NCBI RefSeq assembly: GCF_018326285.1
Contig: NZ_AP023362.1
Span: 1,364,001 to 1,428,000, forward strand
DNA length: 64,000 nucleotides
Origin: Mycolicibacterium sp. TY81
Lineage (GTDB): Bacteria; Actinomycetota; Actinomycetes; Mycobacteriales; Mycobacteriaceae
Direction of reading: 5' to 3'
How positions within the stretch are numbered: position 1 is the stretch's first letter; the number at the start of each line of letters is the position of its first letter. Made by a program: the position numbers and the translations under genes. The notes under the pieces are model-generated. The model was not told where the DNA came from, made no database searches, and worked only from the letters and a program-made list of their open reading frames with translations. Of this stretch, positions 32,807-47,336 are shown piece after piece.

Positions 32807-32875
32807 CGGGCGCGTCCGTCACCGCGGGCGCGCCGGTAACCGGGTGGCGCACAGCAACCACTTAGTCTGTTGGAC

Positions 32876-33871
32876 GTGGCGACGTCCAAGGTTGAGCGGT
32901 TGATGAACCTCGTCATTGCGCTCCTGTCCACCCGTAGCTACCTGTCCGCAGAGCAGATCCGGGCCAACGTCACGGGCTACCAGGACCCGCCGACCGACGA
33001 GGCGTTCTCCCGGATGTTTGAGCGCGACAAGAACGAGCTGCGCGACCTCGGCATCCCACTGGAGACCGGGCGCGCCTCGATGATGGACGTCAATGACGGC
33101 TACCGCATCAACCGCACCGCCTACGAGCTGCCGCCCGTCGAGCTGACGGGCGACGAGCGCGCCGTCGTCGCGATCGCCACCCAGCTGTGGGAATCGCAGG
33201 AGATGGTCACCGCCACGCAGAGCGCGCTGCTCAAGCTGCGGGCCGCGGGCGTGGACGTCGACGCGCCCGACGCGGGCGTCGCGATCACCACCGGAACCAC
33301 GCAGGGGCTGCGCGGTTCCGAGGAGGCCCTGGGAATTCTGTTGTCGGCCATCGACTCCGGCCGTGCCGTGCAGTTCGCGCACCGTCCCAATCGGAGTTCG
33401 CCGTACGTCGACCGCACCCTCGAGCCCTGGGGCGTGGTCACCTACCGCGGCCGGTGGTACGTCGTCGGTCACGACCGCGACCGCAACGACGCGCGCACCT
33501 TCCGGGTGTCGCGCATCGCCGGTGAGGTGCGCGCCGTCGGACCCGACCACGCCGTCACCCGGCCCGAGGGCGTCAACCTGCGGGACATCGTGCACCGTGC
33601 GGTCTCCGAGTGGCCGGCCGGCGAGCAGGCCCGGATCTGGGTCGCCGAGGGGCGGGCGACGGCGTTGCGCCGGCAGGCCGTCAGCTCCTCACCCAGCACG
33701 CGCGGCGGGCGCAGCGGCGACGAGATCGTCGTCGACATCGGCATGGTCGACCGGCTGGCCCGGGAGATCGCCGGCTACGGCGCCGACGCGGTCGCGCTGG
33801 AGCCGAAATCTTTGCGGGACAACGTGATCGGACGGTTGCGTGCGCAGGCGGGGGAGAGCCTTCACAAGTGA
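32876..33871 (+). CDS. pafB: DNA-damage regulator subunit PafB
   Basis: PafB and PafC form the heterodimer that activates most LexA-independent DNA-damage genes of mycobacteria. The 331-residue protein starts 'MATSKVERLMNLVIALLST' with a winged helix, followed by WYL and C-terminal (WCX) domains ('RWYVVGHDRDRNDARTFRVSRI'). The GTG at 32876 has TAGTCT (32863-32868) seven bases ahead and matches the start of the M. tuberculosis protein, so it is preferred to the TTG at 32870. Its stop overlaps the pafC GTG by four bases. The IS-split damage promoter at 44498 is a possible target. Confidence 0.95.
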   Translation: MATSKVERLMNLVIALLSTRSYLSAEQIRANVTGYQDPPTDEAFSRMFERDKNELRDLGIPLETGRASMMDVNDGYRINRTAYELPPVELTGDERAVVAIATQLWESQEMVTATQSALLKLRAAGVDVDAPDAGVAITTGTTQGLRGSEEALGILLSAIDSGRAVQFAHRPNRSSPYVDRTLEPWGVVTYRGRWYVVGHDRDRNDARTFRVSRIAGEVRAVGPDHAVTRPEGVNLRDIVHRAVSEWPAGEQARIWVAEGRATALRRQAVSSSPSTRGGRSGDEIVVDIGMVDRLAREIAGYGADAVALEPKSLRDNVIGRLRAQAGESLHK

Positions 33872-34848
33872 GCAACGTATCCACCCGCCTCGTGCGGCTG
33901 TTGAACATGGTCCCGTATTTCCAGGCCAATCCGCGGGTCAGCCACACCAAGGCCGCCGCTGATCTGGGCGTGACACGCAAGCAGCTGGAAGCCGACCTCT
34001 GGCAGCTGTTCGTCTGCGGGCTGCCCGGCGGAGGCCCCGGGGAACTGATCGACCTCGACTTCGAGGGCGACACCATCGAGGTGATCTTTTCCGCGGGCAT
34101 GGACCGCGCACTGCGGCTGACGTCGCCGGAGGCCACCGGTGTGCTGATGGCGCTGCGCGCGCTGGTCGACGTACCCGGTGTGGTGGATCCCGACGTGGCG
34201 CGCAGCGTGATCGCCAAGATCGAGGCCGCTGCCGGGACCGCCGGCGCGACGGCCGCGGCGGTGCCGGCCCCGGACGTCACCGGCGACGTCGAGAACAAGG
34301 CGACGGCGACGGTGCGGGCCGCGGTGCGCGACAAGCGGGCGTTGTCCCTCGAGTACTACTCCGCTTCGCACGACACCGTCTCGCAGCGCGTCGTCGACCC
34401 GATCCGGGTGGCCCTGATCGGTGACCACAGCTACCTCGAGGCGTGGTGCCGCACCGCCGAGGGGGTGCGGCTGTTCCGCTTCGACCGCGTCGTCGACGCC
34501 ACCGCGCTGGACGAACCCGCCGCGCCGCCGGCACCCGCGGTGCAGGCCGGACCGGACACGTCGCTGTTCTCCGCGGAGACCGCGGACCCGACACTCCCGG
34601 TGGCGACGCTGCTGATCGACGAGTCCGCGGCGTGGATGTTCGACTACTACCCGCTGGCGGTGCAGCGCGAGATTCCCGACGGCAGCTGGGAAGCCACCAT
34701 GAGTTACGCGTCGACCGACTGGATGGCCCGGTTCGTCCTCGGTTTCGGTTCGGCGGTCCGCGTGCTGGACCCGCCCGAACTCGCCGACCGCGTGCGGGAG
34801 TCCGCGGTAGCGGCGCTGGCGGCGTATGAACCCGGCCCTGGCGAGTAG
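33868..34848 (+). CDS. pafC: DNA-damage regulator subunit PafC
   Basis: Partner of PafB: 326 residues, N-terminal winged helix ('HTKAAADLGVTRKQLEADLWQLFVCGLPG', about residues 25-53) then a WYL domain ('EAWCRTAEGVRLFRFDRVVDA') and a C-terminal part. The GTG at 33868 forms GTGA with the pafB stop, so the two subunits are coupled. tatA follows 31 bases later. Confidence 0.95.
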   Translation: MSNVSTRLVRLLNMVPYFQANPRVSHTKAAADLGVTRKQLEADLWQLFVCGLPGGGPGELIDLDFEGDTIEVIFSAGMDRALRLTSPEATGVLMALRALVDVPGVVDPDVARSVIAKIEAAAGTAGATAAAVPAPDVTGDVENKATATVRAAVRDKRALSLEYYSASHDTVSQRVVDPIRVALIGDHSYLEAWCRTAEGVRLFRFDRVVDATALDEPAAPPAPAVQAGPDTSLFSAETADPTLPVATLLIDESAAWMFDYYPLAVQREIPDGSWEATMSYASTDWMARFVLGFGSAVRVLDPPELADRVRESAVAALAAYEPGPGE

Positions 34849-44497: not shown

Positions 44498-44520
44498 TTG
44501 TCGGTGATTCGAACTAGTGT
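44498..44520 (+). promoter_or_regulatory. RecA-NDp-type (PafBC-class) promoter now reading into the IS
   Basis: TTGTCGGTG (44498-44506), eight bases, then TAGTGT (44515-44520), which is exactly the RecA-NDp form TTGTCRGTG-N8-TANNNT used by PafBC-dependent promoters. The left half of a LexA box, TCGAAC (44509-44514), lies between the two elements. The insertion sequence begins at the next base (44521), so the promoter is intact but its original gene is now 1.4 kb away and the transposase (+ strand, start 44686) is what it drives. Confidence 0.7.
44513..44520 (+). repeat. Target-site duplication, left copy
   Basis: ACTAGTGT, identical to 45918-45925. Eight bases is the duplication length of ISL3-family elements. 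Confidence 0.85.
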
Positions 44521-45917
44521 GGCGCTCCACGGGTTTTCGTGGGCGCCTTTGCGCTGTTCAGGGGCTATTTTAGGTTGTGCGCCTGGGGTTTTGAGCGTGT
44601 CGGCGGCGAGTTGAAGGACGCGCACGCGGTGTCCCTCTAGGTTTCGGGGTTACCACACCAACCTCAACCGCCAGGAACGATCCGCGTGCGCGTCAGTACT
44701 GCATTTAACCGAATACTTCAGGTCCCCGGAGCCAACGTCACCGATGTCACCATCGGCGACCGCGATATCGAAGTCACCGTCGGCCTTAAAGCCCGCTCGA
44801 TGCGCTGCCCGTGCGGCAAACGTGTGCGGGCCGGTTATGACCGCCGGCGCCGGCGCTGGCGCCATGTGGATCTGGCCTGCAAGAAACTGTGGCTGGTCTA
44901 CGACATCCGCCGCACGAACTGCCCACGCTGCGGCATCGTCACCGAGCAGGTGCCGTGGGCTCGTCCCGGTGCCCGATTCACCCGAGACTTCGAAGACACG
45001 GTGCTCTGGCTGGCCCAACGCACCGACCGCACCACCGTGGCCACGCTCATGCGGTGCGGCTGGGAATCGGTCACCGCCATCATCAACCGCGGTGTCGACG
45101 AACTGCTCGACCAACGACGACTCACAGACCTGTACCGGATCGGCGTCGACGAAATCTGCTACCGCCACCCGCACAAATATCTGACCATCGTCGGCGACCA
45201 CGACACCGGCACCGTCATCGGAGTCCAGCCCGGACGCAGTGAAGAATCGCTATCGAAATTCTATGAACAACAACCTGATTCGACACTAGAGACGATCACC
45301 GCCGTGAGCATGGACGTGAGCAAGGCGTTCCGCGGAGCCACCCGAACCCACCTACCGGAAGCCACCATCTGCTTTGACCCGTTCCACATCATGCAATGGG
45401 TCAACCGGGCATTGGACCGGGTCTTCGCCGCCGCCGCCAGCGGACCGGACAAAGTCGCCATGACCTCAGCGCAGTGGCGCCAGACCCGATGGGCGCTGCG
45501 CACCGGCGAAAACAAACTCACCGACAACAAACGTGAACTGGTCAACCAGATCGCCCGCGCGAACCGTCACGTCGGCCGGGCCTGGGCCCTCAAAGAACAG
45601 CTGCGCGACCTGTATCGACTCCCACACGAACCCGGTGTCGCCCGTCAACGACTCAAAGCCTGGATCACCGCCGCCAAACGCAGCCGTATCCCGTCCTTCA
45701 TCGAACTCGGCAAACGACTACAGGAACACTTCGACGCCGTCATCGCCGCCGTGGAACTCGGCATCTCCAACGCCCTCCTCGAAGGCATCAACGCCAAAAT
45801 CCGACTCATCAACGCCCGCGGCTACGGCCACCACTCCGCCCGAACACTGACCTCAATGATCTATCTCTGCCTGGGCGGGCTCCACCCTCAGCTACCCACG
45901 AGAAGGTGAGGAGTAGC
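44521..45917 (+). mobile_element. ISL3-family insertion sequence, complete, 1397 bp
   Basis: The ends are defined by the 8-base duplication ACTAGTGT on both sides. The inner ends are imperfect inverted repeats of about 23 bases: the left end starts GGCGCTCCACGGG and includes TTTTCGTGGG (44534-44543); the right end reads, in complement, GCTACTCCTCACC and TTCTCGTGGG (45895-45904). 15 of 23 positions agree, and the inner nine of ten agree. A single transposase gene occupies 44686-45909, and about 165 bases precede it. The element sits in the promoter of the DUF222/HNH gene. Confidence 0.85.
44686..45909 (+). CDS. tnpA: ISL3-family transposase
   Basis: A 407-residue transposase: N-terminal zinc ribbon ('MRCPCGKRVRAGYDRRR' and 'NCPRCGIVTEQV'), a helix-turn-helix, then the DDE core with Asp in 'RIGVDEICYRHPHKY', Asp in 'ICFDPFHIMQWVNRALD' and Glu in 'LLEGINAKIRLINARGYGHHS'. 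The Asp-Asp-Glu order and 'CFDPFH' are the ISL3 hallmark. The frame is intact, so it may be active. No separate promoter was recognised inside the IS, and the damage-type promoter at 44498 faces it. Confidence 0.95.
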   Translation: MRVSTAFNRILQVPGANVTDVTIGDRDIEVTVGLKARSMRCPCGKRVRAGYDRRRRRWRHVDLACKKLWLVYDIRRTNCPRCGIVTEQVPWARPGARFTRDFEDTVLWLAQRTDRTTVATLMRCGWESVTAIINRGVDELLDQRRLTDLYRIGVDEICYRHPHKYLTIVGDHDTGTVIGVQPGRSEESLSKFYEQQPDSTLETITAVSMDVSKAFRGATRTHLPEATICFDPFHIMQWVNRALDRVFAAAASGPDKVAMTSAQWRQTRWALRTGENKLTDNKRELVNQIARANRHVGRAWALKEQLRDLYRLPHEPGVARQRLKAWITAAKRSRIPSFIELGKRLQEHFDAVIAAVELGISNALLEGINAKIRLINARGYGHHSARTLTSMIYLCLGGLHPQLPTRR

Positions 45918-45929
45918 ACTAGTGTTCGA
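45914..45929. promoter_or_regulatory. Remnant of a LexA (SOS) box and -10, right of the IS
   Basis: Removing the IS and one copy of the duplication restores TCGAACTAGTGTTCGA, an exact TCGAAC-N4-GTTCGA mycobacterial LexA box centred on the -10 TAGTGT. To the right of the IS only GTTCGA (45924-45929) and the -10 (45920-45925) remain; the left arm is now TAGCAC. The -10 lies seven bases before the HNH gene ATG, the leaderless spacing. Confidence 0.7.
45918..45925 (+). repeat. Target-site duplication, right copy
   Basis: ACTAGTGT, identical to 44513-44520; it preserves the -10 box TAGTGT for the downstream gene. Confidence 0.85.
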
Positions 45930-45932
45930 TGT

Positions 45933-47336
45933 ATGGGATTGACCGATCCGGCCGCTGTCGAGGAGGCGTACGCCGCCTACGAGGCGGCGCATGCGCGGCT
46001 CGCGGCCTTGGACTACACCGGTCTGGATGTGCCGACATTGTTGGAGTTGCAGTCCCGCCGGGAAACGTTGAGGTGTGCGGCCGAGGCCGTCGATCACCAA
46101 ATTTTGGCGGCCGCACAGACCCAGGCCACGGCCAAAGACATCGGGGCCAAGGATTGGCCTGAGGTGTTGCATGTGCGGTTGCGGATCAGCCGGGAGGAGG
46201 CCCGCCGGAGGGTGCGGGACTGCGACCACCTGGGCCCGCGCTCGGCGATCACTGGGGAGCCGTTGGGTCCGGTGTGGGAACTGGTGGCCGCCGCGTTGGC
46301 TGAGGGTGCGATCAACAGTGAGCACGTCGCGGTGATCACCTGGTTTTTCGGCAAGGTGCCGTTGTGGGCGGCGGACCCGGTCACGTTGTTGCAGTGCGAG
46401 ACGGATCTGGTGGCCGATGCCCGGGTCAAAACCCCCGAAGACCTCCGCAAGGTCGCGGCGGACCTGTTGTACAAGCTGGATCAGGACGGCCCCGAACCCG
46501 ACGACGATGAGCCGGATCCGAAGCGGTCGTTCGTGATGGGTAAGCAGCGGCCTGACGGGCGTACCGACGTCACCGCCGAACTTGATCCGGAAGGGCGGGC
46601 TTACTGGGACGTGTTGTTCGAGAAGTACGCCGCCCCGGGTATGTGCAACCCGGCCGATCCGCAGCCCTGCTACTCCGGGACCCCGACGCAGGAGCAGATC
46701 GACAACGACACAAGGACTGTGGCGCAGCGGCAGTACGACGCGTTCAAATTCGTGGGCCGGATGGCGCTGGCCTCAGGGACGTCGGGTGTGCACAACGGGT
46801 TCCCGGTCGCGGTGGTCGCCACCTGCACCGTCGCCGACCTGGAAAAGCGCGTCGGGATGGCGCTCACCCACACCGGTACCAAGCTGCCGGTCAAGGATCT
46901 GGTGCGGATGGCCGCGCAAGGCTCGGACAACTACCTCGCCATCTTCGATAACCACACCGGCCAACCCCTCTATCTGGGCCGAGCAGCCCGCACCGCCAGC
47001 ACAGCACAACGGTTGGCGTTGTTCGCCCGCGACCACGGCTGCACCCGACCCAACTGCACCGCCCCCGCCTCCTGCTCGCAGGCTCATCACATCACCAACT
47101 GGCGCGACGACGGACTGACCAACATCGACACCATGACCCTGGCCTGCGGCCGCGACAACCGCCTGGCCGACACCGGCGGCTGGACCACCACCATGGGCCC
47201 CCACGGCCGCACCCACTGGACCCCACCACCACTACTGGACGTCGGCCAACCACGAACCAACCACTACCACCGTCCGACACTGTATCCAGCCGAGGGCGAC
47301 GCTAATGATGGTGAAAGCGACAGTCCTGCAGAGTGA
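45933..47336 (+). CDS. DUF222/HNH endonuclease (13E12-repeat family)
   Basis: A 467-residue protein of the mycobacterial 13E12/REP family: N-terminal DUF222 (starting 'MGLTDPAAVEEAYAAYEAAH') and a C-terminal HNH nuclease with 'HGCTRPNCTAPASCSQAHHI', 'THTGTKLPV' and 'NWRDDGLTNIDTMTLACGRDN', where Cys and His residues would bind zinc and metal. Such genes are often preceded by SOS boxes in mycobacteria and are repeated in the genome; whether they cut DNA is not established. The ATG at 45933 has TAGTGT seven bases ahead; the longer open frame from 45906 runs into the IS and is not used. Expression is probably changed by the IS insertion. Confidence 0.87.
   Translation: MGLTDPAAVEEAYAAYEAAHARLAALDYTGLDVPTLLELQSRRETLRCAAEAVDHQILAAAQTQATAKDIGAKDWPEVLHVRLRISREEARRRVRDCDHLGPRSAITGEPLGPVWELVAAALAEGAINSEHVAVITWFFGKVPLWAADPVTLLQCETDLVADARVKTPEDLRKVAADLLYKLDQDGPEPDDDEPDPKRSFVMGKQRPDGRTDVTAELDPEGRAYWDVLFEKYAAPGMCNPADPQPCYSGTPTQEQIDNDTRTVAQRQYDAFKFVGRMALASGTSGVHNGFPVAVVATCTVADLEKRVGMALTHTGTKLPVKDLVRMAAQGSDNYLAIFDNHTGQPLYLGRAARTASTAQRLALFARDHGCTRPNCTAPASCSQAHHITNWRDDGLTNIDTMTLACGRDNRLADTGGWTTTMGPHGRTHWTPPPLLDVGQPRTNHYHRPTLYPAEGDANDGESDSPAE

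Follow-up and report, generated by a model that had tools for sequence, protein, structure and literature searches.

The subject of this report is an insertion sequence (IS) of the ISL3 family in Mycolicibacterium sp. TY81. It lies in a stretch of 64,000 nucleotides (the window; contig NZ_AP023362.1, positions 1,364,001 to 1,428,000 of the forward strand, with coordinates below counted from its first letter), where it has split the promoter of a DUF222 gene and, within that promoter, a LexA box. That the IS targets LexA boxes is the main fact of the analysis, and it was absent from the earlier note on this DNA. Very probably, a whole clade of ISL3-family elements uses the actinobacterial LexA operator (the SOS box, TCGAAC-N4-GTTCGA) as its target.

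The element and the promoter that it splits

The features of the locus are collected in Table 1. The IS is 1397 bp long (the query used to search for copies, at 1398 bp, included one base from the right duplication), and its transposase is recognized by the DDE_Tnp_ISL3 domain and by NF033550, which passes its cut-off. The ISL3 helix-turn-helix domain PF13542 is also matched (1.7e-15), and the ISL3 zinc ribbon PF14690 reaches 25.2 bits, slightly under its cut-off of 25.5. Terminal repeats of the GGCTCTT type are typical of the ISL3 family, without defining it. Such ends are not present in this IS, which has GGCGCTCC and GCTACTCC, and other members of the clade have GCCAATTA and similar ends. 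The hairpin of the left repeat is predicted in an RNA that begins at 44527, an assumed start point. A sequence scan of the IS itself found no LexA box at 0 or 1 mismatch.

Table 1. Features at the split promoter and related genes in the window
Feature	Position	Strand	Basis
pafB and pafC	32870..34848	+	WYL, WCX, HTH_PafC
RecA-NDp-type promoter TTGTCGGTG-N8-TAGTGT, -10 at 44515-44520, facing the transposase	44498..44520	+	motif scan
Left part of the split LexA box, TCGA and core ACTAGTGT	44509..44520	.	sequence; whole in the orthologous empty site L166
Left 8-bp target duplication ACTAGTGT	44513..44520	.	sequence
ISL3-family insertion sequence, 1 of 3 identical copies	44521..45917	+	sequence, domain and copy searches
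Left terminal repeat GGCGCTCC..., itself a hairpin sequence	44521..44545	+	15/25 bases equal to the right end, by eye
Possible short leader reading frame (TTG...TAG)	44611..44640	+	alignment; similar frame by eye in several relatives
Leader stem 44617-44629 / 44682-44694 over the transposase start codon	44617..44694	+	13-bp perfect inverted repeat; fold z -3.8
ISL3 transposase, 407 aa, GTG start	44686..45909	+	PF01610 2.9e-59; NF033550 2.5e-88
Right terminal repeat, ending ...GAGGAGTAGC	45893..45917	-	sequence
Right-junction box TAGCACTAGTGTTCGA, 10/12 LexA-box positions	45914..45929	.	box scoring
Right 8-bp target duplication ACTAGTGT	45918..45925	.	sequence
DUF222 (13E12-type) gene with the split damage promoter	45933..47336	+	PF02720 3.4e-59

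The outer TCGA...TCGA and the duplicated core together make a LexA box that matches at 12 of 12 fixed positions, and the IS separates its left half, TCGAAC at 44509-44514, from its right half. The earlier note was thus right to place an ISL3 element inside a damage promoter, and right that an intact RecA-NDp-type promoter with its -10 faces the transposase. This promoter exactly fits the motif TTGTCRGTG-N8-TANNNT, which we take to be that of RecA-NDp. In the window it is the sole match with at most one mismatch (0.11 expected). The genome has 24 exact matches, this one among them, and none to the reversed control pattern. Five exact composite RecA-NDp/LexA promoters are found in the genome, the window locus counted. 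Nine of the 24 exact matches fall on smaller contigs of this genome (eight on C2 and one on C4), a dense set of damage promoters on what are perhaps plasmids.

According to PMC6789036, PafBC acts through RecA-NDp, and PMC4181829 gives TCGAAC(N)4GTTCGA as the Mycobacterium tuberculosis SOS box and puts 13E12/HNH genes under LexA. The PafB and PafC domains were indeed found where the earlier note had them, at 32876-34848, with PafB at about 32870-33871 and PafC at 33868-34848, downstream of pafA (WYL, HTH_PafC, Pup_ligase).

Two other parts of the earlier description stand only in part. The gene called an HNH gene is there, starting at an ATG to the right of the IS, and its domain is DUF222; no HNH family was matched in it at an E-value of 0.001 in the domain scan. 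The LexA box, said to be broken on both sides, has its left half cut off, but 10 of 12 box positions, more than half a box, survive at the right junction because the IS ends in TAGC. With so many positions kept there, it is uncertain whether the transposase has been freed from LexA. More generally, an IS right end of TAGC, TCGC or CCGC remakes a near-full box of up to 11 of 12 positions at right junctions, as at 45914-45929 and at G034:C1:3363782-3363797. Mimicry of the box by the right end (TCGC/TAGC) was considered and set aside: the resemblance is real, but the terminal bases give at most 3 of 4 matches, and chance could account for it.

The promoter can be seen whole where the IS is absent. 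In a relative (genome G149, locus L166), identity is 90.6% along 1492 bp of the left flank and 84.0% along 1416 bp of the right. Where the flanks meet there are an exact RecA-NDp motif and the intact box TCGAACTAGTGTTCGA, as the earlier note had expected of an empty site. Another genome (G332, L157) has the box and the gene, with a matching right flank and a left flank that matches over only 98 bp. A DUF222 paralogue in the same genome, 97% identical, also retains the intact arrangement, box included (L163, G000:C1:1339409). In G204 (L031), by comparison, the left end of an IS stands at the identical base and in the same direction in the orthologous promoter (88.4% over 1520 bp). The difference between this locus and the empty one would follow from two separate insertions or from a loss in G149.

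The target in the host genome and in relatives

The genome of 6.47 Mb contains three identical copies of the IS, each inserted precisely in the middle of a perfect TCGAAC-N4-GTTCGA, with box cores TAGT, ATGT and ACGT. Only 15 perfect boxes remain intact there, the reversed control pattern has none, and 754 sites match the box with at most 2 mismatches. If bases were chosen at random, three perfect boxes would be struck by chance with a probability of about 2e-17. In the other two copies the transposase runs in the opposite direction to the gene.

The same target recurs in relatives. When 396 genomes of the genus were searched, 111 (counting the host) had matches; many of these matches are short segments of other elements. 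The genus is taken to be Mycobacterium in the GTDB sense, judged from named contigs that share flanks with its loci. Along with the host genome, 27 of the 110 others were followed, and the 83 left out include many with short internal matches only. Further, named relatives came from 29 loci of the genome collection and from a Rhodococcus opacus plasmid; of 3667 plasmid records with matches, five were fetched. This yielded 45 complete sites. Twelve genomes of the genus account for 35 of them, and other actinobacteria for 10. For these ten, the ends were set by the terminal repeats and the duplication without reference to the box and were then adjusted by at most 2 bases; they were counted as complete because identical 8-bp copies had been found.

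At 42 of the 45 complete sites, at least 10 of the 12 fixed LexA bases are present and the core of the box is the duplication (12 bases match in 20 sites, 11 in 16, 10 in 6, 9 in 2 and 8 in 1). In the window as background, 1.4e-4 of positions score 10 or more and none scores 11. The two copies of the 8-bp duplication are identical and equal to the palindrome core at 43 of 45 sites; L012 has one mismatch and L061 an indel. Single junctions agree with this pattern: 47 of 53 score 7 or 8 of 8 (25 and 22, respectively) against a background of 4.9e-4, in a count that may include both ends of one insertion.

Several loci stand outside these counts: L023, L025, L027 and L032, which have no IS end; L081, whose flank is that of L074; L071, L072, L073 and L014, which repeat L017, L021, L016 and L069; L113-L118 and L133, which are the same as loci of the genus (L113 of M. 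lehmannii has the flanks of L011, and L114 of M. neoaurum those of L005); L136, L137 and L139-L141; both junctions of the inner copy of L013; and L127 and L138. At L070 (region G291:C1:160737-161004), a 272-bp deletion form with both IS ends lies in a perfect box with an intact duplication. It is a non-autonomous element, like a miniature inverted-repeat transposable element, and was probably moved by a transposase of this clade.

Some observations weigh against LexA-box targeting as a rule without exceptions. Three of the 45 sites score under 10 (L015 and L063 at 9, and L061, with the indel in its duplication, at 8), and six of the 53 single junctions score 3-6 of 8. Outside the counts, a junction of L013 that lies inside another IS copy scores 3 of 8, and the Dactylosporangium roseum copies L127 and L138 have altered duplications. 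Five of the box-clade rows from beyond the genus rest on one junction each. Among the 31 of the 45 sites whose neighbouring genes were scanned, three have neighbours with LysE, ABC transporter and amidohydrolase domains, and three have neighbours without a domain at an E-value of 0.001. The insertions seen are also those that survived; selection against insertions at other places could make the pattern sharper, but would not fix it to a single base. As for L013 (G345:C151), the IS copy there seems to start 96 bases into the left end of another, at a non-box site; being near a contig end, this nesting is possibly an effect of assembly.

A single clade of transposases

A tree of 41 transposases puts the 26 rows labelled as box-inserted in a single clade (support 100/99), which appears in all of 200 bootstrap trees. 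Seven of the 26 carry that label by one junction (L018, L073, L119, L123, L131, L134 and L135), and L143, L146 and L172 were labelled non-box from incomplete or weak ends. Members of the clade come from Mycobacterium, Rhodococcus, Humibacillus, Dactylosporangium, Actinoplanes, Planosporangium and Amorphoplanes, as well as from metagenome-assembled genomes, one of them of the Acidimicrobiales, so the clade spans Mycobacterium to Micromonosporaceae.

Other ISL3 elements behave differently. Of 38 loci examined, those outside the clade whose best end pair scored at least 27 were taken as complete. The resulting 14 sites belong to 13 elements (L180 and L197 are one element) and have only 1-5 of the 12 box bases, with several AT-rich duplications. 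For example, L144 and L145, on Rhodococcus/Arthrobacter plasmids, share with the box clade an ISL3-type DDE transposase, imperfect terminal repeats and an 8-bp duplication. However, their ends (GGCTCTTCTG or GGCTCTCCTG) are unlike box-clade ends such as GGCGCTCC, GCTACTCC and GCCAATTA, and they sit in the AT-rich, unrelated 8-mers ATATTTTT and TAAAGTAG where the box clade uses LexA boxes. One of the 14 non-box sites, L173, has 47.6% identity and is as close as some clade members, yet it falls outside the clade, and its tree neighbours L171 and L172 show no box at their readable ends. L171 (G423:C184) adjoins an apparent tRNA gene, judged by eye, and has a T-rich duplication. Since there is a single clade with non-box elements just outside it, the specificity for LexA boxes seems, from these sequences, to have arisen once.

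Three residues, Y150, W264 and R272, are specific to the box clade, and the last two share the predicted helix 261-272; they are candidates only. In the structure model of the transposase the N-terminal half is poor (mean predicted local distance difference test score, pLDDT, of 62). Foldseek searches with this model gave chains of the ISCth4 transposase as best matches, and a search by sequence for a solved relative gave nothing convincing, with two matches at E-values of 0.25 and 0.65.

Neighbouring genes and the transposase leader

The genes next to insertions are largely those next to intact boxes. In the host genome, DUF222 genes follow 13 of the 15 intact boxes, a radical SAM gene follows one and a frame without a known domain another, and the frequency of DUF222 genes at insertions is therefore what box targeting predicts. 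Among the 31 scanned sites, DUF222/HNH genes follow at 22, with DNA polymerase IV (IMS), a radical SAM protein and NrdH (glutaredoxin-like) at one each. In other words, insertions and boxes have the same range of neighbouring genes. DUF222 genes as such are unlikely to be the target, as the polymerase IV (L062), radical SAM (L121) and plasmid-borne NrdH (L142) genes were struck at the equivalent position of the box.

Inside the IS, the inverted repeat over the transposase start codon keeps nine pairs in the majority of the 23 sequences aligned, which include non-box ISL3 elements. Two of the pairs show double changes, with a covariation term of only -0.2, and L073 breaks the stem or is misaligned. 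A possible leader frame lies ahead of the stem and partly within it; it has nine codons, a TTG or ATG start, the pattern M[KR]DAH...L and a TAG stop. As folded, the stem would form in any transcript that enters from outside and may silence a read-through transposase transcript. Such a stem keeps the transposases of IS10 and IS50 silent in transcripts that start outside the element. Given the predicted stem at the start codon, the yield of transposase from a captured promoter is doubtful.

How the site may be chosen

The transposase itself probably reads the palindrome. It would join the IS to the two strands at positions 8 bp apart and symmetric within the box, TCGA^ACNNNNGT^TCGA, with the core of the box becoming the duplication and each junction retaining one outer half. 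What the IS gains may be safe and portable landing sites: on this reading a genome has several boxes, they are conserved across the phylum, and most stand before dispensable damage genes, DUF222/HNH genes above all. Capture of a promoter, as at 44498-44520, would occur only if the transposase end happened to face the damage promoter.

An alternative is that LexA protein tethers the transposase to its operator, so that the match in sequence is indirect. Some other elements do use host DNA-binding proteins as a tether, and it speaks for a tether that all three host insertions lie in one of 18 perfect boxes among about 750 sites with at most 2 mismatches. The occupied sites that match at 11 of 12 bases also have AT-rich N4 cores like those of true LexA boxes, with a mean core G+C of 1.25 of 4 against 2.19 of 4 in unoccupied sites, among the matches listed for two genomes (p 0.001). 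These cores weigh against plain 12-base matching, but the preference fits recognition of the whole 16 bp by the transposase equally as well as it fits real LexA sites. The joins, moreover, lie inside both half-sites, where a bound LexA should cover both join positions, and a site with only one good half is sometimes used, as at L015, which has one full GTTCGA. The position of the joins and L015 favour direct reading by the transposase, and a tether is unlikely.

The earlier note had stressed promoter capture, and one could suppose that the IS settles where a damage promoter drives its transposase because such copies are selected. The geometry is real at the window copy, with its intact promoter and -10, and the IS of L031 repeats its position and direction at the orthologous promoter. 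Across 25 sites with a damage-type gene identified by its domain, however, the transposase runs in the same direction as the gene at 11 and in the opposite direction at 14 (11 against 13, p 0.84, before L057 was added). Because the directions are mixed, capture is a side effect of about half of the insertions and was rejected as the general reason for them. A scan of all 45 sites for such a promoter leading into the 5' end of the IS found only the window copy and a loose match at L066 (by eye, L048, L049, L053 and L068 lose the final T of the -10), and the stem covers the start codon of the gene that would profit. Selected capture is accordingly quite improbable. Far less credible still is broad insertion with survival only in dispensable damage genes. 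The abundance of DUF222/HNH genes after the scanned sites would suit it, but survival cannot hold the insertion to a single base within a 16-bp palindrome, as seen at 42 of 45 sites, and it leaves the absence of boxes at all 14 sites of other ISL3 elements unexplained. In its strong form it is refuted by the base-exact positions.

The transposase may also compete with LexA for the operator, with boxes open only after LexA is cleaved upon damage. The IS as a parasite of the SOS circuit in this sense is a tentative idea, more doubtful than not. Were it true, dispersal would be timed to the SOS response, each insertion would remove a gene from the LexA regulon, and in about half of the cases the transposase would come to lie behind a damage promoter.

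Known systems and significance

Insertion sequences with a fixed DNA target are known, among them elements that target repetitive extragenic palindromes and bacterial interspersed mosaic elements (REP/BIME) and those that target attC or res sites. Like them, the IS described here inserts with base precision at a repeated, often palindromic sequence; unlike theirs, its target is an operator, that of a global stress repressor. The split promoter belongs to the composite RecA-NDp/LexA type found at DUF222 genes (under PafBC and LexA), here with an IS inside. A link to the SOS regulator is shared with ISCR1, ISCR2 and ISCR8, which according to PMC13393415 have LexA boxes in their own promoters, where LexA binds and represses the transposase. 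In ISCR elements the regulation is thus inside the element, whereas here the insertion is into LexA sites of the host. No IS that targets LexA operators was found in the literature searched, in which coverage of subscription journals is slight. An ordinary IS family has an unusual address, and as far as that literature goes, the targeting of LexA operators appears new.

If the transposases of this clade read the operator of a master stress repressor, they would exemplify mobile elements that find their addresses among the binding sites of a host regulon. With related elements just outside it that lack this specificity, the clade makes it possible to study directly how a DDE transposase acquires its sequence-specific choice of target. 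An IS that prefers a 16-bp palindrome is also a possible tool for targeted insertion in laboratory strains. For the actinobacteria themselves, the finding suggests a cause of rewiring in the SOS regulon, and the insertions mark LexA sites.

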